Source of the DNA: Gammaproteobacteria bacterium
Lineage (GTDB): Bacteria > Pseudomonadota > Gammaproteobacteria > GCA-001735895
Direction of reading: 5' to 3'
Length of the DNA: 43,960 nucleotides
NCBI GenBank assembly: GCA_030066315.1
Contig: JASJBW010000007.1
Span: forward strand, 1-43,960
Shown here: one piece after another, positions 12,637 through 25,659 of the stretch
How the letters are laid out: each line of letters opens with the position of its first letter
Numbering within the stretch: position 1 is the first letter of the stretch
Translations under genes and position numbers: made by a program
The notes under the pieces: model-generated
Databases searched by the model: none
What the model was told of the DNA's origin: nothing
Seen by the model: only the letters and a program-made list of their open reading frames with translations

Positions 12637-12869
12637 TGAACAATAACTCTTGGTTTTATCTGGGAATTAAAGCATGTTCCATCCATTTCATCCACCACCG
12701 ACATCACAAGATGAAGAGATTTATATTTTCAATACAAGGTATTTAAGTATAACTCGCGCTGAAATCCTTAATAAGGTTGCTTTTTACCCCGGCAAAAGAG
12801 TATTTTGGGTAAATGCTGCAGCGCAACAATGGACGCTGGCGATATCTTATAATAATTAGGAGAGTGACT

Positions 12870-14177
12870 GTGAACCGACAAGAACAGATAAAACAACTTG
12901 AAAATGACTGGCTTACCAACCCTCGTTGGGCGAATGTAAAACGTGGCTATAGCGCTGAAGATGTGGTGCGACTGAGGGGATCGATTCAGCCTGAATATAC
13001 CCTCGCCCGTCGCGGTGCCGAAAAACTCTGGGAAAAAATCAATGGCGGAGCCAGAAAAGGCTATGTCAATGCATTTGGTGCGATAACCGCTGGACAAGCC
13101 ATGCAACAGGCCAAAGCTGGGCTTGAAGCCGTCTATCTCTCGGGTTGGCAGGTTGCTGCAGACGGCAATACCTCCGAAACCATGTATCCCGATCAATCGC
13201 TCTATGCTTATGATTCTGTACCCACCATGGTGCGTCGCATCAATAATACTTTTAAACGGGCTGATGAAATTCAGTGGGGTCGAGGCATCGATGAAGGCAG
13301 TGAAGAATTTGTGGATTATTTTCTCCCGATTGTAGCCGATGCAGAAGCGGGGTTTGGCGGTGTACTCAACGCCTTTGAATTAATGAAAAACATGATTACC
13401 GCCGGTGCTGCAGGGGTTCACTTTGAAGATCAATTGGCCGCTGTTAAAAAGTGCGGGCATATGGGTGGCAAAGTGCTCGTTCCGACGGGTGAAGCCATCC
13501 AAAAATTGATCGCGGCTCGTTTTGCTGCAGATGTCATGGGAGTACCGACAATCGTTCTGGCACGAACCGATGCGGAGGCTGCCAACCTGTTGACCTCGGA
13601 TGTAGACGAGAACGATAAACCTTTTTGCACCGGTGAACGAACTGCGGAAGGTTTCTATCGTGTTAAAAATGGACTGGAACAAGCCATCAGTCGTGGTGTT
13701 GCCTATGCTCCTTATGCTGATCTGGTCTGGTGTGAAACCGGCAAACCTGACATTGGTTTTGCGCGCGAATTTGCCCAAGCGGTACTGGCGGCAAACCCGG
13801 GGCAACTTTTATCTTATAACTGCTCACCCTCCTTCAACTGGAAAGGTAACTTGTCCGAATCCGAAATTGCCTCTTTCCAGGATGAATTGTCTGCATTGGG
13901 TTACAAGTACCAGTTCATTACCCTGGCAGGTATCCACATTAACTGGTACAACACCTTCCAGTTCGCTCATGCCTATGCACGGGGCGAAGGCATGAAACAC
14001 TATACTGAAATGGTCCAAGAACCTGAATTTGCTGCGCGTGAGCAAGGCTATACGTTCGTGTCTCATCAGCAAGAGGTAGGTGCGGGTTACTTCGACGATG
14101 TGACCACCGTCATCCAAGGCGGCTCTTCTTCGGTAACGGCTTTGACCGGGTCTACTGAAGAAGAACAGTTCGGTTAA
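12870..14177 (+). CDS. aceA: Isocitrate lyase (GTG start)
   Basis: [20 protein letters not shown] start preceded by TTAGGAGAG; catalytic [23 protein letters not shown]. Confidence 0.95.
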
Positions 14178-14244: not shown

Positions 14245-14344
14245 CACATCGGTTGAGTATTGATCAATAGCTAAGCGGGCATATAACATGGGTACATGCG
14301 CACTGACCAAAAAGCCTACTGCCCCCCTGGTTTCCGGAATCAAT

Positions 14345-16078
14345 ATGGAAATTGATGCGCAACTGATTGCCCAGACCATACTCAGGGGTTTTAACAAGCA
14401 TTATCGAATTTTTCTCGAGATCACGAAGGGGGCCCAACATCGATTTGAACATTGCGAATGGGACGCTGACCGTAAAGCTTCAAAAAAACGTATCACCTTG
14501 TATACCAAGCGGGTTTGGGAATCGATCGCGAAATTACGTCAAGATTTCGACCTGAATCAATTTGATGAAGCCCTGTGGAAACAGGTAAAAATTGAATACC
14601 TGCAATGCCTGTATGAACATAAACAACCTGAACTCGCTGAAACCTTTTTTAATTCAGTGTTCACCTCTCTGTTTCATCGTCGTTATTACAACAATGACCA
14701 TATTTTTGTTCGCCCCGGGCTTTCGACAGAGTATCTCGATGATGAACTGACTTACATTGGCTTTTATCCCACTCGGCATGGACTGACTAAAACCGTACGT
14801 CAAATCCTGACTTTAAATAACCTTTCCCTACCCTATGAGGATCTAAACCGGGATGTAAGAAGAGTGGTCTCTATCATTAAGAAAAAAATGTTACCGTACC
14901 TGGAGTTTCGTCAACATTTTCAATTGCGAATTTTAACCAGCCTGTTTTATCGTAATAAGGCTGGCTACATTATCGGTATGGGCGTGAACGGTGATCAGAT
15001 CATTCCTTTTGCCATCCCTATTTTGAATAATGAAAAGGGACACTTGTATGTAGATACCCTGATTCACGAACAAAATGATATTGCCAACCTGTTCAGCTTT
15101 GCACGCACCTATTTTATGGTGGATACCAATACGCCGTCGGCCATCGTTAATTTTTTATTACGCATGTTACCCACCAAGTCCAAAGCCGACATTTATACGG
15201 CCATAGGCCTTCAGAAACAGGGGAAATCTGAGTTTTATCGAGATTTTCTGCATCACTTAAAACATTCTTCCGACCAACTTGAAATTGCTCCAGGTATTAA
15301 AGGCATGGTGATGACAGTGTTCAATCTGCCTTCCTATCCTTACGTGTTTAAAGTGATTAATGATCAGTTTGCGCCACCGAAGAAAACCACGCGAAAACTG
15401 GTCAAGGAAAAATACCAGATCATCAAGATGCATGACCGGGTAGGCCGTATGGCCGATACCCTGGAATATTCCTATGCCGCGTTTCCGCTATCTCGGATTT
15501 CTGATGATCTGTTACACGAGCTCAAGAAAAAAATACCTTCCAGCATTGAATTTGAAAACCAAATGTTGATCATCCGCCACCTGTATATAGAACGACGCCT
15601 GGATCCTTTGAATTTATATCTTTCAAACCCTCAAAATGACGGCGAGGCCGTCATACGTGATTATGCTCGTGCGATTAAGGATATGGCTGCCGCCAATATC
15701 TTTGCCGGAGACTTATTGCTGAAAAATTTTGGGGTTACTCGACATGGTCGTGTCATTTTTTATGACTATGATGAAATTGAATTCATGACCGACATGAATT
15801 TTAGACATATTCCCGAAGCACTGACACCGGAACAGGAAATGGCTTCGGAACCCTGGTATTCAATTGGTGCAAATGATGTCTTTCCCGAAGAATTCATTCA
15901 TTTCATTACCGGACAACCTGCACTTAAACGTTTAATACGCGAGCAATATCCCGAGCTTTTTGATGCTGATTACTGGAAATCGGTACAGGAAGATATCAGA
16001 AATCATCGTTACCGCGATATTTTCCCTTATTCCAATCGAATACGATTTAAACATATCTATGCTGACGATAATCACTGA
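14345..16078 (+). CDS. aceK: Isocitrate dehydrogenase kinase/phosphatase
   Basis: LIAQTILRGFNKHYRIFLEITKGAQHRFE; GMVMTVFNLPSYPYVFKVI; LLLKNFGVTRHGRVIFYDYDEI. Start could also be 14288. Confidence 0.94.
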   Translation: MEIDAQLIAQTILRGFNKHYRIFLEITKGAQHRFEHCEWDADRKASKKRITLYTKRVWESIAKLRQDFDLNQFDEALWKQVKIEYLQCLYEHKQPELAETFFNSVFTSLFHRRYYNNDHIFVRPGLSTEYLDDELTYIGFYPTRHGLTKTVRQILTLNNLSLPYEDLNRDVRRVVSIIKKKMLPYLEFRQHFQLRILTSLFYRNKAGYIIGMGVNGDQIIPFAIPILNNEKGHLYVDTLIHEQNDIANLFSFARTYFMVDTNTPSAIVNFLLRMLPTKSKADIYTAIGLQKQGKSEFYRDFLHHLKHSSDQLEIAPGIKGMVMTVFNLPSYPYVFKVINDQFAPPKKTTRKLVKEKYQIIKMHDRVGRMADTLEYSYAAFPLSRISDDLLHELKKKIPSSIEFENQMLIIRHLYIERRLDPLNLYLSNPQNDGEAVIRDYARAIKDMAAANIFAGDLLLKNFGVTRHGRVIFYDYDEIEFMTDMNFRHIPEALTPEQEMASEPWYSIGANDVFPEEFIHFITGQPALKRLIREQYPELFDADYWKSVQEDIRNHRYRDIFPYSNRIRFKHIYADDNH

Positions 16079-16160
16079 CCCTTGAACGGGAACACCACTA
16101 CCAGGGGAATTTTATATCTCCTTGATTATTCAGTTTTTATTTTAACGATTAGGAATTATT

Positions 16161-16190
16161 CAATGCTTTCTGAAAAAGCATTGGTTTTTT
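16161..16190 (+). terminator. Intrinsic terminator after aceK
   Basis: Perfect 9 bp stem CAATGCTTT / AAAGCATTG with 5 nt loop followed by GTTTTTT. Confidence 0.75.
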
Positions 16191-16285: not shown

Positions 16286-16777
16286 ATGACCTTTAAAACC
16301 GCCGACCTTTGTGATGATCATTTTGATCGCGTAAAAGTGATGCAGCCAGGCTTCATGGATTTTGGCGGTCAGATCATGTTTTCCGGTCAGGTTTCAACCA
16401 TTAAATGTTATGAAGATAATTCTAAAGTCAGGCAACAACTGAGCACAGCCGGAATGGGGCGCGTGCTGGTTGTCGATGCAGGCGGATCAAGACGTTGTGC
16501 AATGCTGGGTGACATACTCGCCGGTATGGCTGTCGATAATGGTTGGTCGGGTATAGTGATGTACGGTTTGATTCGTGATAGCTATGAAATCAGTCAGATG
16601 CCTCTGGGTGTGAAAGCTTTAGGGACCTATCCGCTGAAAAGTAAAAAACAAGATATCGGTGACATTGATGTTGAGATCTCATTTGGCGGTGTTGACATCC
16701 GACCGGGTGATTACCTTTATGCTGACCATGACGGTATTATTATCAGTAAAAACAATCTAATACCCAGTAACACTTAG
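16286..16777 (+). CDS. RraA-family protein (HMG/CHA aldolase-like signature)
   Basis: LCDDHFDRVKVMQPGFMDFGGQIMFSGQVSTIKCYEDN; GRVLVVDAGGSRRCAMLGDILAGMAVDNGWSGIVMYGLIRDS; GDYLYADHDGIIIS. Confidence 0.87.
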   Translation: MTFKTADLCDDHFDRVKVMQPGFMDFGGQIMFSGQVSTIKCYEDNSKVRQQLSTAGMGRVLVVDAGGSRRCAMLGDILAGMAVDNGWSGIVMYGLIRDSYEISQMPLGVKALGTYPLKSKKQDIGDIDVEISFGGVDIRPGDYLYADHDGIIISKNNLIPSNT

Positions 16778-16811: not shown

Positions 16812-18704
16812 ATGAGTAGTTACCAACAGATATATCAACAGTCTATAGAGGACCCCGACGGTTTCTGGGCAGCAGCGGCAGATCAACTGCATTGGTATAA
16901 AAAATGGGATCGGGTCATAGACATGCAGGCCAAACCCGTTCCACGCTGGTTCGAAGGTGGCGAAATCAACACTTGTTATAACGCGGTGGATCGGCACGTT
17001 GAATCCGGCTTGGGTGATCAGACGGCCATTATTTATGACTCACCCATAACCAACCAGCAAACCAAGATCAGTTATGCAGAACTTCTGGATCAAGTTTCCA
17101 GATTTGCCGGGGTTCTTCAAAAGCATGGAGCTGGTAAAGGGGATCGAGTCATCATCTATATGCCCATGATACCTGAAGCGGCGATTGCAATGCTGGCTTG
17201 TGCCCGAATAGGTGCCATCCACTCTGTTGTTTTTGGTGGTTTTGCCGCCAATGAACTGGCAACCCGTATTGATGATGCAAAACCTGTCATTATCGTATCC
17301 GCCAGTTGCGGTATCGAACCGGGTCGTGTGGTCAAATACAAACCCTTGCTGGATGAGGCGATAGATGTCGCAACACATAAGGTCAGTCGTTGCATCCTTA
17401 AAGCCCGCCCCCAAGCCGAGGCAGGCCTCATTGACGGTCGAGATTTTGACTGGGATACCGAAATAGACCCTGCTGAACCCGTAGATTGTGTCCCTGTTGC
17501 GTCCACAGATCCTCTGTACATTCTGTATACCTCGGGTACTACCGGTCAACCAAAAGGCGTTATTCGCGACAATGGTGGCCATGCCGTGGCCATGCATTGG
17601 ACCATGAAGAACATTTACAATGTAGACACCGGTGATGTCTATTGGGCCGCTTCTGACGTCGGCTGGGTGGTTGGTCATAGTTATATCGTTTATGCTCCTC
17701 TACTCAAAGGCTGCACCACCATCATGTATGAGGGTAAACCGGTGGGAACACCTGACCCAGGTGCATTTTGGCGCGTTATCAATGAACACCAGGTACGCGT
17801 TTTATTCACCGCCCCTACTGCCTTTCGTGCCATTAAAAAGGAAGACCCAGAAGGTCACTATCTCAAGAATTATGACCTATCCTGCATGGACGCTTTGTTT
17901 CTTGCCGGCGAGCGCTGCGACCCTGATACCTTATTCTGGGCCCGTGATAAATTACAAAAACCGGTTGTTGATCATTGGTGGCAAACTGAAACGGGCTGGG
18001 CAATCGCTTCCAATCCACTCGGAATTGAACCCATGGAAATCAAGCCTGGATCGCCTACGGTTTCAATGCCTGGATATGATGTTCAGGTATTGTCGGAAGA
18101 AGGGGAGCCAATGCCTGCTGGAGAAATGGGTAACATTGTTATTAAACTGCCTATGCCCCCTTCCTGCTTACCCAGCCTGTGGGGTAATGATCAACGTTTC
18201 ATCGATTCCTATTTATCCAAATATGAGGGTTATTACCTGACCGGTGATGCGGGCTACAAGGATGAGGATGGCTATCTTTGGATCATGAGTCGCACAGACG
18301 ACGTCATCAATGTGGCGGGGCACCGCCTTTCTACAGGTGCGATGGAAGAGGTATTGTCAGGACATGAAGATATCGCGGAATGTGCGGTCATTGGCGTCGC
18401 CGATGCCTTGAAAGGTCAGATGCCATTGGGCTTATTAGTTCTGAAAGCGGGGATTGATCGACCAGAAGAAGAGATCGTTAAAGAACTGGTGCAGAGGGTT
18501 CGTGATCAAATCGGTCCGGTGGCGGCCTTCAAGATGGCTAAAATCGTTAAGCGCTTGCCCAAAACCCGTTCCGGAAAAATTCTTCGTGGCACCATGGTCA
18601 GTATTGCTGATGGTAAGGAATGGAAGATGCCGGCAACGATCGATGATCCCGCCATACTCAATGAAATCACCGAAGCCCTGCAGTCGCTCGGCTACGCCAA
18701 ATAA
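16812..18704 (+). CDS. prpE: Propionate-CoA ligase
   Basis: 630 aa AMP-forming acyl-CoA synthetase; YTSGTTGQPKGV, DHWWQTETGWAI, KTRSGKILRGTM; followed by prpB and prpC. Confidence 0.92.
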   Translation: MSSYQQIYQQSIEDPDGFWAAAADQLHWYKKWDRVIDMQAKPVPRWFEGGEINTCYNAVDRHVESGLGDQTAIIYDSPITNQQTKISYAELLDQVSRFAGVLQKHGAGKGDRVIIYMPMIPEAAIAMLACARIGAIHSVVFGGFAANELATRIDDAKPVIIVSASCGIEPGRVVKYKPLLDEAIDVATHKVSRCILKARPQAEAGLIDGRDFDWDTEIDPAEPVDCVPVASTDPLYILYTSGTTGQPKGVIRDNGGHAVAMHWTMKNIYNVDTGDVYWAASDVGWVVGHSYIVYAPLLKGCTTIMYEGKPVGTPDPGAFWRVINEHQVRVLFTAPTAFRAIKKEDPEGHYLKNYDLSCMDALFLAGERCDPDTLFWARDKLQKPVVDHWWQTETGWAIASNPLGIEPMEIKPGSPTVSMPGYDVQVLSEEGEPMPAGEMGNIVIKLPMPPSCLPSLWGNDQRFIDSYLSKYEGYYLTGDAGYKDEDGYLWIMSRTDDVINVAGHRLSTGAMEEVLSGHEDIAECAVIGVADALKGQMPLGLLVLKAGIDRPEEEIVKELVQRVRDQIGPVAAFKMAKIVKRLPKTRSGKILRGTMVSIADGKEWKMPATIDDPAILNEITEALQSLGYAK

Positions 18705-18719
18705 TTAAAGGGTACGCTT

Positions 18720-19607
18720 ATGAGCCAGACTTCACCTGGGAAAATTTTTCGTCAACTGGTTGCCTCAGAAAATCCGTTACAATGCGTTGGGGCAATCAAT
18801 GCCTATCATGCTCGTCTTGCACAGGCCTCCGGTTTCAAATCACTGTATATCTCCGGAGGTGGAGTCGCTGCGGGTTCTTGTGGTATTCCAGACTTGGGCA
18901 TCACCACTTTAGAAGATGTACTTACCGATTTACGTCGTATCACTGATGTCACTGATCTACCGGTTTTAGTGGATATTGATGTGGGCTGGGGAGGTGCTTT
19001 CAACATTGCCCGGGCCATTCGCTCCATGACCAAGTTTGGAGCAGCCGCTATACATATCGAAGACCAGGTCATGCAGAAACGTTGTGGTCACCGACCTAAT
19101 AAAGCCATTGTTTCTCAACAGGAAATGGTAGACCGCATCAAAGCGGCCGTCGATGCCAAGATAGATCCTGATTTTGTTATCATGGCCCGAACTGATGCTC
19201 TGGCAGTCGAAGGACTTCAATCTGCGATTGATCGCGCCGGTGCCTGTGTAGAAGCGGGTGCAGACATGATATTTCCTGAAGCTATCACCGAACTGGAGAT
19301 GTACCAGCAATTCATTGATGCCGTAAAGGTGCCGGTGCTGGCCAATATAACCGAGTTTGGCTCTACCCCTTTATTTACTACAGAAGAACTCGCAGGTGCT
19401 GGAGTCAGCATTGCACTGTATCCATTATCAGCTTTTCGCGCAGCCAATGCGGCTGCACTGAAGGTTTACCAAACGCTTATCACCGAAGGTAGTCAAAAAA
19501 ATGTAATCGATACCATGCAGACCCGGGCCGATCTTTATGACTACCTTGATTATCACAGTTACGAACAGAAACTCGATGCTCTGTTTGAGGAGGAGAAAGA
19601 ATTATGA
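18720..19607 (+). CDS. prpB: 2-methylisocitrate lyase
   Basis: 295 aa; [44 protein letters not shown]-type motif ([14 protein letters not shown]). Confidence 0.95.
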
Positions 19608-20758
19608 ATGCAACTGCCAATCAGATATTACCTAAAGCTAAAAAATCAGTAGCGCTGTCCGGCACTGCCGCTGGCAATACCGCAATCTGTACGGTAGGCC
19701 GAACGGGCAATGATCTGCACTATCGAGGCTACGATATTCTGGATTTTGCAGAAAAAGCGGAATTTGAAGAAATTGCCTATTTATTGATTCATGGGCATTT
19801 ACCCACCATGGCAGAATTAAATGCCTATAAAACCAAGCTTAAATCATTACGCAGTTTACCTCAGGCTGTAAAAAAAGCACTTGAAGCGATTCCAGCAACA
19901 GCCCATCCCATGGATGTCATGCGCACAGCATGTTCCGTGATGGGAACCTGCGTTCCCGAGAAGGATGATCATCCTGCTGCTGAAGCTCGGGATATCATTG
20001 ATCGCCTGATGGCCAATTTCGGCTCTGCCTTACTCTACTGGTACCACTTTGCTGTGAACGGCAAACGTATCGAGGTGGACACCGATGATGATTCCATTGG
20101 GGGTCATTTCCTGCACCTATTGCATGGCGAAAAACCTTCCGATTCCTGGGTAAGAGCCATGCATACCTCATTAATTCTATATGCTGAACATGAGTTCAAT
20201 GCCTCTACATTTACAGCCCGTGTCATCGCGGGTACTAACTCAGACATGTACTCCGCCATTACCGGTGCCATAGGAGCCTTAAGAGGTCCTAAACATGGAG
20301 GGGCCAACGAAGAGGCTTTCCGAATTCAAAGTCGTTACAATTCAGCTGATGAGGCTGAACAGAACATTCGCGAAAGGGTTGCTCGGAAAGAAATTGTCAT
20401 AGGTTTTGGTCATCCAGTGTATACCGTGGGTGATCCACGTAATGAAGTGATCAAGCGCGTCGCTAAAGAATTATCTGATGAAGCCGGAAATACTAAAATG
20501 TTCGATATTGCTGAACGTCTTGAATCCGTAATGTGGGCAATAAAAAAGATGTTCCCTAACCTTGACTGGTTTTCAGCCGTATCCTACAACCAGATGGGAG
20601 TCCCCACAGATATGTTTACTCCATTATTCGTGATTGCAAGGGTAACCGGTTGGGGTGCTCACGTTATTGAACAGCGTGAGGATGGCAAGATCATACGTCC
20701 TTCAGCCAATTATATTGGTCCCGAGAATCGGGAGTTTATTCCTATTGAAAACCGTTAA
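19604..20758 (+). CDS. prpC: 2-methylcitrate synthase
   Basis: 384 aa; [54 protein letters not shown] overlap with prpB. Confidence 0.95.
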
Positions 20759-20828: not shown

Positions 20829-21818
20829 ATGAACTCATTTAGTGCCTTTTATGCCACCGAGTCTGAGCAAGGCCCACTTATACAACAAACCACATTAACT
20901 CAAGACGATTTAATGCCGGGTAATGTGACCGTCCAAGTGAAATACTCAACCATCAATTATAAAGATGCCCTGGCGCTTACGGGCTCCGCCCCCATTTTAA
21001 GAAAACTGCCGATCATACCCGGTATTGATTTTGCCGGTGAGGTGATCGAGTCTTCTGACGAGCGTTTCTCAATCGGTGACGAAGTACTACTCAATGGTTT
21101 TGGTGTGGGAGAAACCCACAGTGGTGGTTATGCCCAGATGGCACGGGTTAATGCTGACTGGTTGGTCAGGCTACCTAATAATATCGATTGTCGCCAGGCC
21201 ATGGCTATCGGTACGGCAGGTTATACCGCCATGCTCTGTATTCTGGCATTGGAAGATCACGGTGTTAACCCTGATGACGGCCCTGTATTGGTAACGGGAG
21301 CATCTGGAGGTGTGGGCAGCGTAGCCGTATCGGTCTTGAGTAAATTGGGCTATTCAGTCAGTGCCTCAACCGGAAAACTAACGGAAAGTGATTATCTTAA
21401 ATCTCTGGGCGCCATTGAAGTGGTTGACAGGAATGACTTTGCACAAAAACCACGTCCCCTTGGAAAAGAACTTTGGGCTGCAGCCGTTGATGTTGCGGGT
21501 GGGCAAACCCTCGCCAATGTACTCAGTCAAACTCGTCGTGCAGGGGCCGTTGCTGCTTGTGGTTTGGCGGAATCGATGGATCTTCCCACCTCTGTGGCTC
21601 CATTTATACTGCGTGGCATTACCCTCTACGGTATAGATTCCGTGATGTGTCCAATGGAAAGAAGAATACAGGCCTGGAGTCGCCTCAGTCAGGATCTTGA
21701 TCTTGAAAGACTTGAATCAATGACCTCAGAGATACCTTTTGATGATTTACCGGCAGCCACACAGGATTTATTGGCAGGGAAATTAAAAGGCAGAACTGTC
21801 GTTAAACTTCCAGATTAA
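20829..21818 (+). CDS. acuI: Acrylyl-CoA reductase AcuI/YhdH-type MDR oxidoreductase
   Basis: 329 aa; STINYKDALALTGSAPILRKLPIIPGIDFAGEV; VTGASGGVGSVAV nucleotide-binding motif; strong SD upstream. Confidence 0.85.
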   Translation: MNSFSAFYATESEQGPLIQQTTLTQDDLMPGNVTVQVKYSTINYKDALALTGSAPILRKLPIIPGIDFAGEVIESSDERFSIGDEVLLNGFGVGETHSGGYAQMARVNADWLVRLPNNIDCRQAMAIGTAGYTAMLCILALEDHGVNPDDGPVLVTGASGGVGSVAVSVLSKLGYSVSASTGKLTESDYLKSLGAIEVVDRNDFAQKPRPLGKELWAAAVDVAGGQTLANVLSQTRRAGAVAACGLAESMDLPTSVAPFILRGITLYGIDSVMCPMERRIQAWSRLSQDLDLERLESMTSEIPFDDLPAATQDLLAGKLKGRTVVKLPD

Positions 21819-21859
21819 GTTAATCCCAGTGATCCCGTAAATGAAATCCATGTGAAAGT

Positions 21860-24469
21860 ATGAATAACCATTATCGCAAACCTTTACCCGACACAGCATT
21901 GGATTATTACGATGCCCGTTCCGCGGTGGAATCGATCCAGCCCGGTGCCTACGATACATTACCCTACACCTCACGAGTTCTGGCGGAACAATTAGTACGT
22001 CGCTGTGAACCTGCAGTATTCACTGAATCATTAAAACAAATCATCGGTCGTAAACGTGACCAGGATTTTCCCTGGTACCCGGCACGAGTCGTATGCCACG
22101 ACATTCTGGGACAAACGGCTCTGGTCGACCTGGCAGGGTTACGTGATGCCATCGCTGATCAGGGCGGTGATCCATCCAAGGTTAATCCGGTAGTACCCAC
22201 CCAGTTGATTGTGGATCATTCCCTGTCTGTCGAATGCGGAGGTTTTGATCCGGATGCTTTTGAAAAAAACCGGGCCATCGAAGACCGTCGCAACGAAGAC
22301 CGTTTCCATTTCATCGAATGGACTAAAACTGCATTCGATAATGTGGATGTGATACCTGCTGGAAACGGTATCATGCACCAGATCAACCTGGAGAAAATGT
22401 CTCCGGTCATCCAGTCTCGAGACGGAATTGCCTTCCCTGATACCTGTGTAGGCACGGACAGTCATACGCCCCATATTGACTGTCTGGGCGTCATTGCCAT
22501 TGGTGTAGGTGGTCTGGAAGCCGAAACGGTCATGCTGGGCCGCCCCACCATGATGCGTTTACCAGAGATAGTCGGTGTAAAATTGACCGGAAAACGCCAA
22601 CCTGACATCACCGCTACTGATATTGTACTGGCCCTGACCGAGTTCCTGCGTAGCGAAAAAGTGGTTTCCGCCTATCTGGAATTTTTTGGAGAAGGTGCTG
22701 CCGATTTAACGATTGGAGACCGGGCCACCATCTCCAATATGACACCTGAGTTTGGTGCTTCGGCGGGTATGTTTTACATTGATCAACAAACCATCGATTA
22801 CCTGAAGTTGACTGGCCGCGATGCACAGCAAGTGGCACTGGTAGAACACTATGCGAAGACGACCGGCCTGTGGGCTGAACACCTGGAAAATGCTCAATAC
22901 GAGCGCATGCTGGAGTTTGACCTGTCGGTTGTGGAGCGCAATATGGCGGGCCCCTCTAATCCACACCGTCGCCTACCCACCTCTGCCCTGTCAGAACGTG
23001 GTATTGCTACCGACCTTAACCAGGTGTTAGCCGAAGAGGCAGAAGGTAAGATGCCGGATGGCGCTGTAATCATAGCTGCCATTACCAGCTGTACCAATAC
23101 CAGCAACCCTCGTAACGTGGTCGCTGCTGGCCTGGTTGCCCGTAAAGCAAACGAACTGGGCCTGGTCCGTAAGCCTTGGGTCAAGTCCTCGTTTGCACCG
23201 GGTTCCAAAGTCGCCAGGCTCTACCTGGAAGAAGCCGGCCTGTTACCGGAACTTGAAAAATTGGGCTTTGGCATCGTTGCCTATGCCTGTACCACCTGTA
23301 ACGGTATGAGTGGCGCGCTAGATCCTAAAATTCAGCAAGAAGTTATTGATCGTGACCTTTACGCTACCGCAGTACTCTCTGGCAATCGAAATTTTGACGG
23401 TCGTATTCATCCCTATGCCAAACAGGCCTTCCTGGCTTCTCCCCCGCTGGTCGTCGCCTATGCCATTGCCGGAACGATACGTTTCGACATCGAGAAGGAT
23501 GCCTTGGGTACCGATGCCAATGGTAAACCGATCACGCTGAAGGACATTTGGCCCCACGATGAAGAAATTGATGCCATCGTTAATCAATACGTCAAACCTG
23601 AACAGTTTCGTAGAGTATACGATCCTATGTTTGACCTTGGCACCATTGAAAAAGCGGATAGTCCACTCTACGCATGGAGACCCCAAAGTACCTACATTCG
23701 ACGTCCACCCTATTGGGAAGGTGCGCTGGCTGGAGAACGCAGCATGAAGGGCATGCGTCCCTTGGCAGTGCTCGGCGACAATATTACAACAGACCACTTA
23801 TCGCCCTCAAACGCGATCCTGGCCAGCAGCGCAGCCGGCGAATATCTGGCCAGTATGGGATTACCCGAGGAAGACTTTAATTCCTACGCAACGCATCGTG
23901 GCGATCACTTGACTGCTCAGCGTGCAACTTTTGCCAATCCCAAGCTATTGAATGAAATGTGCAGAAATGGAAACGGTGAAATCAAACAGGGTTCTTTGGC
24001 CCGGATCGAGCCGGACGGTAAGCGTACGCGCATGTGGGAAGCTATTGAGACCTATATGCAACGCAAGCAACCACTTTGTATCATTGCGGGCGCGGATTAC
24101 GGTCAGGGTTCATCCAGAGACTGGGCGGCCAAAGGTGTCCGTCTAGCCGGCGTCGAGGCCATCGTGGCCGAGGGCTTCGAACGTATTCACCGAACCAACC
24201 TGGTAGGAATGGGCGTACTGCCCCTGCAATTCAAAAATGGTGAGACACGCAATACCTATCATATTGACGGTACCGAAACTTTCGATGTCATGGGTGAACC
24301 GACGCCTCGGGCTGAATTAATCGTCGTCATGCATCGAAGTGATGGCACCATAGTCGAAATTCCGGTGACTTGCCGACTGGATACCGCAGAAGAAGTGTCT
24401 GTCTACCAGGCCGGCGGGGTCCTGCAACGATTTGCCCAGGATTTTCTTGAATCATCGGCTGCTGCCTAG
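21860..24469 (+). CDS. acnD: Fe/S-dependent 2-methylisocitrate dehydratase AcnD
   Basis: 869 aa aconitase family; SCTNTSNPRNVV, CTTCNGMSG cluster ligands; next to prpF. Confidence 0.95.
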   Translation: MNNHYRKPLPDTALDYYDARSAVESIQPGAYDTLPYTSRVLAEQLVRRCEPAVFTESLKQIIGRKRDQDFPWYPARVVCHDILGQTALVDLAGLRDAIADQGGDPSKVNPVVPTQLIVDHSLSVECGGFDPDAFEKNRAIEDRRNEDRFHFIEWTKTAFDNVDVIPAGNGIMHQINLEKMSPVIQSRDGIAFPDTCVGTDSHTPHIDCLGVIAIGVGGLEAETVMLGRPTMMRLPEIVGVKLTGKRQPDITATDIVLALTEFLRSEKVVSAYLEFFGEGAADLTIGDRATISNMTPEFGASAGMFYIDQQTIDYLKLTGRDAQQVALVEHYAKTTGLWAEHLENAQYERMLEFDLSVVERNMAGPSNPHRRLPTSALSERGIATDLNQVLAEEAEGKMPDGAVIIAAITSCTNTSNPRNVVAAGLVARKANELGLVRKPWVKSSFAPGSKVARLYLEEAGLLPELEKLGFGIVAYACTTCNGMSGALDPKIQQEVIDRDLYATAVLSGNRNFDGRIHPYAKQAFLASPPLVVAYAIAGTIRFDIEKDALGTDANGKPITLKDIWPHDEEIDAIVNQYVKPEQFRRVYDPMFDLGTIEKADSPLYAWRPQSTYIRRPPYWEGALAGERSMKGMRPLAVLGDNITTDHLSPSNAILASSAAGEYLASMGLPEEDFNSYATHRGDHLTAQRATFANPKLLNEMCRNGNGEIKQGSLARIEPDGKRTRMWEAIETYMQRKQPLCIIAGADYGQGSSRDWAAKGVRLAGVEAIVAEGFERIHRTNLVGMGVLPLQFKNGETRNTYHIDGTETFDVMGEPTPRAELIVVMHRSDGTIVEIPVTCRLDTAEEVSVYQAGGVLQRFAQDFLESSAAA

Positions 24470-24480
24470 GGAGGCTCCGC

Positions 24481-25659
24481 TTGGCATACGCACCACAAAT
24501 CAAGATCCCTGCTACCTATATGCGCGGTGGTACTAGCAAAGGCGTTTTCTTTAACCTGGCTGACCTACCCGAGAGTGCACAAGTAGCGGGGGAGACAAGA
24601 GACAAACTGCTGCTGCGCGTCATCGGCAGTCCAGATCCTTACGGTAAACAGACCGATGGTATGGGTGGCGCAACCTCAAGCACCAGTAAAACGGTCATTC
24701 TTAGCAAGAGTGACCAACCGGATCATGATGTCGATTATTTGTTTGGACAGGTTTCTATCGATAAACCTGTTGTAGATTGGAGTGGGAATTGCGGCAACCT
24801 GACTGCAGCCGTGGGTTCCTTTGCTATTGCCAGTGGCTTGGTCAGTGCAGAACGTATCCCCGATAACGGTAAAGCCGTGGTGAGAATTTGGCAAAAAAAT
24901 ATACAAAAAACCATCATCGCCCACGTGCCCATCACCAATGGTGAAGTTCAGGAAACTGGAGAGTTTGAACTGGATGGTGTCACTTTTCCAGCAGCGGAGA
25001 TACAAATAGATTTTATCAACCCAGTGGACGCTTCAGAAGCCATGTTTCCAACCGGTAACACGGTAGATAACCTGGAAGTACCCGGTATTGGTAACTTTAA
25101 GGCGACGATGATCAATGCCGGTATTCCTACCATTTTTCTCAATGCAGAAGAGATTGGTTATCAAGGCAACGAACTTCAGCAGGCGATTAACGAAGATGAC
25201 GAGGCATTGAGAATGTTTGAAACCATTCGTGCCTATGGCGCATTACAGATGGGCCTGATCGAACAGGTGGAAGAAGCTGCTGCACGTCAACATACACCAA
25301 AAGTAGCATTTGTCTCAGAAGCAAAATCTTATCGTGCATCCAGTGGCAAGAACATTAATAGCTCAGACATCGATTTGAATGTTCGCGCACTATCCATGGG
25401 TAAATTGCACCATGCCATGATGGGTACAGCTGCCGTCGCCATCGGTACCGCCGCAGCCATACCCGGCACTTTGGTCAATCTGGCTTCCGGTGGCGGTCAT
25501 CGTGAATCGGTAACCTTCGGCCACCCTTCAGGAACCTTAAAAGTAGGCGCAGAAGCGAGTAACATTGAGGGTAACTGGACGGTCAACAAGGTAGTCATGA
25601 GCCGTAGCGCTCGTGTACTCATGGAAGGCTGGGTACGTATACCTCGAGACATCTTCTAA
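24481..25659 (+). CDS. prpF: 2-methylaconitate cis-trans isomerase PrpF (TTG start)
   Basis: 392 aa; KIPATYMRGGTSKGVFF, DWSGNCGNLTAAVG, GHPSGTLKVGA. Confidence 0.95.
   Translation: MAYAPQIKIPATYMRGGTSKGVFFNLADLPESAQVAGETRDKLLLRVIGSPDPYGKQTDGMGGATSSTSKTVILSKSDQPDHDVDYLFGQVSIDKPVVDWSGNCGNLTAAVGSFAIASGLVSAERIPDNGKAVVRIWQKNIQKTIIAHVPITNGEVQETGEFELDGVTFPAAEIQIDFINPVDASEAMFPTGNTVDNLEVPGIGNFKATMINAGIPTIFLNAEEIGYQGNELQQAINEDDEALRMFETIRAYGALQMGLIEQVEEAAARQHTPKVAFVSEAKSYRASSGKNINSSDIDLNVRALSMGKLHHAMMGTAAVAIGTAAAIPGTLVNLASGGGHRESVTFGHPSGTLKVGAEASNIEGNWTVNKVVMSRSARVLMEGWVRIPRDIF

Follow-up and report, generated by a model that had tools for sequence, protein, structure and literature searches.

Many bacterial genes are named "RNase E regulator" on account of E. 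coli RraA. One such gene lies in the stretch of gammaproteobacterial DNA analyzed here (the window: positions 1 to 43,960 of contig JASJBW010000007.1, assembly GCA_030066315.1), and it raises the question whether its product regulates RNase E or is an enzyme. Our preferred reading, to which we assign a probability of about 0.6, is that the window protein is a short RraA-fold, divalent-metal-dependent 2-keto-acid lyase of the isocitrate/glyoxylate branch point; this reading does not insist on an exact substrate. With such a function the family, whose natural substrate beyond aromatic degradation has been unclear, would gain a concrete and testable place in physiology.

The metal site of the window protein

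The reading frame at 16286–16777 on the forward strand is open and has a stop codon at its end (Table 1). The encoded protein matches PF03737 at full length (model positions 1–152 of 152, E = 2.7e-46, 158 bits against a cut-off of 24.5). It also scores above the cut-offs of TIGR01935, the short RraA family, over the whole chain (206.8 vs 123.8 bits), of NF006875, "ribonuclease E activity regulator RraA" (219.9 vs 136), and, narrowly, of NF009134 (200.8 vs 196), a family whose own name is "putative HMG aldolase". The enterobacterial RraA equivalog TIGR02998 is missed (167.3 vs 241.25 bits), and the HMG/CHA aldolase equivalogs are missed by far (NF006731: 43.1 vs 179; TIGR02798: 34.6 vs 304.5 bits). 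Solved relatives at 50–53% identity fix the predicted fold of this protein.

Table 1. Features of the rraA locus in the window (nucleotide positions; strand).
Feature	Position	Strand	Remark
aceA, isocitrate lyase	12813..14177	+	NF011645, 756.9 bits, above cut-off
aceK, isocitrate dehydrogenase kinase/phosphatase	14288..16078	+	NF002804, above cut-off
Terminator-like hairpin followed by T run, aceK-rraA gap	16160..16184	+	pattern match only
rraA-like gene, 163 aa	16286..16777	+	short RraA-family protein, intact class II aldolase-type metal site
D76 codon	16511..16513	+	pairs with Asp-102 of HMG/CHA aldolase 3NOJ
R97-D98 codons	16574..16579	+	pair with Arg-123 and Asp-124 of 3NOJ
E101 codon	16586..16588	+	acidic residue, invariant among relatives with G at 76
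K121 codon	16646..16648	+	pairs with Lys-147 of 3NOJ
prpE-like acyl-CoA synthetase, start 34 nt past rraA	16812..18704	+	best match propionate-CoA ligase, under that cut-off
prpB and prpC, methylisocitrate lyase and 2-methylcitrate synthase	18720..20758	+	annotation
acuI, acnD, prpF, acrylyl-CoA reductase and AcnD/PrpF branch of methylcitrate cycle	20829..25659	+	annotation

Exactly 20 residues separate D76 from R97, and D98 follows directly. This result bears out the D-x20-RD motif that an earlier note, made from the DNA sequence without database searches, had read in this gene. The note had also stated, correctly, that E. coli RraA contains Ala and Gln at the two Asp positions: the sequence of 1Q5X has A76 and Q98. 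An alignment by phmmer places residues 39–156 of the window protein collinear with residues 65–182 of HMG/CHA aldolase (3NOJ) at a constant offset of 26, so that D76, R97, and D98 correspond to Asp-102, Arg-123, and Asp-124. In the same alignment G75, N45, and K121 fall on Gly-101, Asn-71, and Lys-147 of 3NOJ. According to published work on HMG/CHA aldolase (PMC5065237), Arg-123 is essential and stabilizes the enolate, Asp-124 and Glu-199 are metal ligands, the enzyme also decarboxylates oxaloacetate, and most homologues contain one of two motifs required for metal binding and catalysis. Glu-199 is without counterpart in the window protein, because the offset of 26 would give residue 173 and the chain stops at 163. 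We are nearly certain that the motif is real and that the active site is intact. Oxaloacetate or a related keto acid is a plausible substrate.

The earlier note took the motif as a mark of the HMG/CHA aldolase branch. This view was not supported: D-x20-RD is also present in the RraA proteins of Pseudomonas aeruginosa (3C8O), Mycobacterium tuberculosis (1NXJ), and Vibrio cholerae (1VI4), and among 197 aligned proteins (the window protein, five PDB sequences, and 191 relatives) 163 contain a complete metal site, either as D-x20-RD (144) or as G-x20-RD-x2-E (19); the other 34 are degenerate. The motif is the usual state of short RraA proteins and no peculiarity of the window gene. All 19 proteins with G at position 76 have E at position 101, while this +3 residue is variable in the D-x20-RD form. 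Such covariation points to selection on the metal site whichever of the two forms a protein has. R97 and D98 are conserved in 100% and D76 in 88% of the 163 motif-bearing sequences, but this set was picked by the motif, and the telling facts are the share of 163 in 197 and the covariation of the two forms. The residues lost most sharply from the degenerate set include D7, G75, D76, D98, K118, and K121; Lys at position 121 occurs in 91% of the intact relatives and in 0% of the degenerate ones. Genomes with two short RraA copies (ten examined in the phylum sample: L199-L216, L241, and L242) encode one intact and one degenerate copy in 10 of 10 cases, which is a clean case of duplicates dividing labor.

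Position relative to RNase E inhibitors

To place the window protein we used a maximum-likelihood tree of 144 rows from which the five motif columns were omitted; many of the deeper branches of this tree are without support. E. coli RraA falls within one clade of 13 degenerate rows (100% SH-aLRT). The window protein lies outside this inhibitor clade, in the motif-bearing part of the tree, where it forms a group (97% SH-aLRT) together with five proteins from the same genus. Two degenerate copies, L175 from genome G274 and L103 from genome G009 (the latter on a very long branch), also branch outside the E. coli clade, which makes more than one loss of the metal site probable. A separate observation concerns the RraA proteins of Desulforhopalus and Desulfopila (L034 10001-10450 and L021 10001-10450), which show 56–57% identity with the window protein. 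In the tree the Desulforhopalus protein nests among those of Thiodiazotropha and Sedimenticola, and this position suggests lateral transfer.

By annotation the window protein would regulate RNase E in the manner of E. coli RraA. Consistent with this label, the NF006875 cut-off is exceeded, the protein shares 43% identity with E. coli RraA, Cys9 and Cys41 are retained, and the RNase E encoded in the same genome has a long tail of low complexity. Moreover, Streptomyces RraAS2 is described as an effective RNase E-type inhibitor (PMC5738090), which makes moonlighting of the window protein possible. On the other hand, TIGR02998 is well missed (167 vs 241 bits) and the E. coli clade excludes the protein with full SH-aLRT support (100%). 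Asp-50 and Glu-53 of E. coli RraA, which contact the helicase SrmB, are replaced by Q and S, although these positions vary in both groups. In Vibrio vulnificus, VvRraA1 binds and inhibits RNase E, whereas VvRraA2 does neither (PMC5738090). The cloning primers of VvRraA2 encode MGKDIT... and ...ISKELLQF, which fit the intact copies of Vibrio-like two-copy genomes; judged by these primers, the motif-bearing paralogue is the one that neither binds nor inhibits RNase E. Genomic context also differs: menA lies within 4 kb of 17 of the 33 degenerate copies, as in the hslVU-menA-rraA locus of E. coli, but of 0 of the 158 intact ones. This neighborhood is absent at the window gene, which is flanked by aceK and prpE. 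A regulator of the E. coli type is thus a very improbable description of the window protein. The preference of the earlier note for a metabolic enzyme over an RNase E regulator has gained from the residues shared with 3NOJ, from the position outside the E. coli clade, and from a Vibrio-type paralogue without RNase E binding; we hold it to be highly probable rather than settled.

Co-occurrence with isocitrate lyase

The gene order in the window is aceA-aceK-rraA-prpE-prpB-prpC-acuI-acnD-prpF, with rraA between the end of aceK (16078) and the start of prpE (16812), as the earlier note had stated. The hairpin at 16160–16184 and the 34-nucleotide gap to prpE suggest that rraA may be co-transcribed with prpE in a new transcription unit. 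The prpE-like gene (16812–18704) falls short of the two PrpE equivalog cut-offs and barely exceeds that of the generic acetate-CoA ligase model NF001208; the enzyme may accordingly use acetate, propionate, or both of them. The position of acuI (20829–21818) between prpC and acnD hints at the use of acrylate or 3-hydroxypropionate. The rraA-prpE pair recurs in congeners and in a sister genus, and prpB follows the pair in only some of them; in congener G003 it is on a different contig. On this side of the gene the order is common to close kin only. The placement beside methylcitrate genes emphasized in the earlier note is a local arrangement set on a broader link with the glyoxylate shunt, with the prp genes as local neighbors of a probable branch-point enzyme gene.

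This broader link was examined in a class sample of 276 genomes (completeness of 90% or more, with the window's own genome added; the class was taken as Gammaproteobacteria on the basis of its members, some of which show the enterobacterial-type menA locus), in which isocitrate lyase (ICL) was scored as PF00463 or as the 531-residue type NF005074. Both rraA and ICL are present in 81 genomes, rraA only in 4, ICL only in 16, and neither in 175 (Fisher odds ratio 221, uncorrected for shared ancestry). ICL is present in 58 of 61 rraA-bearing families. With prpB as a control, the odds ratios are only 5.1 with rraA and 8 with ICL. Inside ICL-positive genomes the association of rraA with prpB drops to an odds ratio of 0.83, none of the four ICL-negative rraA genomes contains prpB, and prpB lies within 5 kb of rraA in 2 of the 47 genomes that contain both. 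A general role in the methylcitrate cycle is rejected, since the tie to prpB vanishes once ICL is accounted for; the gene order in the window itself is nonetheless real.

Adjacency points in the same direction. The aceA gene lies within 5 kb of rraA in 20 of the 81 genomes, from 16 families, compared to about 0.3 expected by chance, and this in spite of fragmented assemblies. This adjacency occurs with both types of isocitrate lyase. Mapped onto the protein tree it requires at least 23 changes and is not a single inherited event. In the annotated loci of relatives, aceA and aceK adjoin rraA in many lineages and in varied orders and orientations. With related genomes included in the counts, aceA is found within 4 kb of 45 of 158 intact copies and aceK within 4 kb of 35, as opposed to 0 of 33 degenerate copies for either gene. 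The repeated neighbors are thus aceA and aceK rather than the methylcitrate genes. Also recurrent beside intact copies are the genes for malate synthase A, NADP isocitrate dehydrogenase (icd), PEP synthase (ppsA, 12 copies) and its regulator (ppsR, 9 copies), and acetyl-CoA synthetase (acs), the last recognized by similarity to a gene of the window.

Several observations limit this tie. Most intact copies are without adjoining aceA, and genomes of the enterobacterial type run the shunt with degenerate RraA alone; both facts count against a role at the glyoxylate branch. Across both samples, 104 of the 105 genomes that carry an intact copy have ICL, but so do 15 of the 19 in which every RraA copy is degenerate (4 lack it), so motif loss is only partly a marker of absent ICL. 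A universal link between RraA and ICL must be rejected, as it holds in the sampled class and fails elsewhere in the phylum: outside the class, 41 genomes have ICL and 19 have rraA, but only 1 has both, and one family keeps intact RraA without ICL. In one genome outside the class that lacks isocitrate lyase (L250 1557-5464), intact rraA runs divergently to genes resembling, by eye, oadA and oadB; among the relatives fetched, this is the only genome with such genes beside rraA.

On balance we consider a functional tie of the window protein to the isocitrate/glyoxylate branch point likely. For the majority of relatives in the class, which keep the enzyme active site and travel with ICL, the label "RNase E regulator" is probably wrong. 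The protein family and its two metal motifs were known already, and the connection between motif-bearing RraA and ICL seems new in the literature searched. That search, whose scope misses most subscription journals, found no publication linking RraA to aceA or the glyoxylate shunt; association databases may show the link. RraA-like proteins of plants have been linked to the peroxisome, and our literature search on these proteins found nothing usable.

Proposed chemistry, rival readings, and known systems

By analogy to HMG/CHA aldolase we infer that the window protein binds a divalent metal and acts as a lyase. The metal would be held by D76 and D98, perhaps with E101, and would chelate the substrate by its alpha-keto acid end, R97 would stabilize the enolate, and the adjacent C–C bond would then break. 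Glyoxylate is the product released by isocitrate lyase. The likeliest substrates may be 4-hydroxy-2-oxoglutarate (glyoxylate plus pyruvate) and oxalomalate (glyoxylate plus oxaloacetate), which the lyase would return to glyoxylate and either pyruvate or oxaloacetate. Since both adducts inhibit aconitase and isocitrate dehydrogenase, an adduct lyase would protect the branch point while ICL runs. An aldolase of the class II pyruvate type that can decarboxylate oxaloacetate as well has the right chemistry for undoing glyoxylate adducts, HMG being a methyl homologue of 4-hydroxy-2-oxoglutarate. Oxalomalate arises from non-enzymatic condensation of glyoxylate and oxaloacetate and loses CO2 to form 4-hydroxy-2-oxoglutarate, the same compound that glyoxylate and pyruvate give by aldol reaction (PMC4945632). 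We propose glyoxylate-adduct repair as the main role of the window protein only tentatively, with the odds somewhat against it.

KDPG/KHG aldolase (Eda) also acts on 4-hydroxy-2-oxoglutarate. Eda is encoded in 14 of 14 ICL-positive genomes with degenerate RraA only, which belong to three families and are confounded by ancestry, versus 2 of 19 ICL-positive genomes with intact RraA. This contrast is consistent with replacement of intact RraA by Eda; that the window's own genome carries both counts against it. A broader scenario would make motif-intact short RraA the glyoxylate-shunt repair lyase of many Gammaproteobacteria, with Eda taking over in the enterobacterial-vibrio lineage and the spare RraA without metal site becoming an RNase E inhibitor. 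We regard this scenario as doubtful.

The main rival to the branch-point lyase is an oxaloacetate decarboxylase: in cells growing on acetate or propionate it would form pyruvate as a C4-to-C3 exit from the glyoxylate shunt, and PEP synthase would then complete gluconeogenesis. This reading draws on the decarboxylase activity described for HMG/CHA aldolase (PMC5065237), on ppsA and ppsR beside intact copies, and on the divergent oadA-oadB-like genes in one genome outside the class, and it would account for the tie to aceA too. That the ppsA neighbors and the oadAB-like genes fit oxaloacetate or pyruvate chemistry equally well counts against our preferred reading. However, the ppsA counts take no account of lineage independence, and a decarboxylase would waste the acceptor required by citrate synthase and methylcitrate synthase while leaving the specificity of the tie to ICL unexplained. 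We consider this function unlikely. It is also conceivable that the link to ICL reflects lifestyle only, both genes being kept by aerobic heterotrophs without shared function. The co-occurrence statistics do ignore phylogeny and the link fails outside the class, but adjacency within 5 kb at about 60 times chance, in several orientations and with both ICL types, its confinement to motif-intact copies, and the far weaker association of prpB, another aerobic-carbon gene (odds ratios of 8 with ICL and 5 with rraA), make this explanation improbable. More improbable still is an enzyme of propionate or methylcitrate metabolism. The gene does start a run of prpE, prpBC, acuI, acnD, and prpF at only 34 nucleotides from prpE, and the rraA-prpE adjacency extends through the genus to a sister genus; against this stand the 2 of 47 genomes with prpB nearby, the odds ratio of 0.83 within ICL-positive genomes, the absence of prpB from all four ICL-negative rraA genomes, and the separate prpB contig of congener G003.

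Comparison with characterized and solved relatives places the proposed branch-point lyase among known systems. P. aeruginosa RraA (3C8O) is 53% identical over 155 residues, equal in length, and has the same GD-x20-RD motif and pocket residues. This structure was deposited under the RNase regulator name; we found no published function test of this protein, nor function data in literature on the P. aeruginosa and yeast gene names of the family. HMG/CHA aldolase (3NOJ, LigK/PcmE-type) shares D-x20-R-D and the equivalents of Gly-101, Asn-71, and Lys-147, but has a longer chain that includes Glu-199. In contrast to 3NOJ, no aromatic-degradation genes are among the annotated neighbors of the window gene. 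The Thermus thermophilus protein 1J3L is a short chain of the same fold with the alternative motif G-x20-RD-x2-E, and the window protein differs in having D there, at the variable position, with E at +3 in addition. Mazurkewich and co-workers reportedly described HMG aldolase and oxaloacetate decarboxylase activity for this RraA-like protein in 2014. VvRraA2 of V. vulnificus, judged from its primers alone, would belong to the intact type like the window protein. E. coli RraA (1Q5X) has the same fold and length at 43% identity, but differs by A and Q in place of D76 and D98, by its hslVU-menA context, and by its separate clade. Taken together, the evidence suggests a route by which a regulator may originate, namely from a duplicated and disarmed enzyme.
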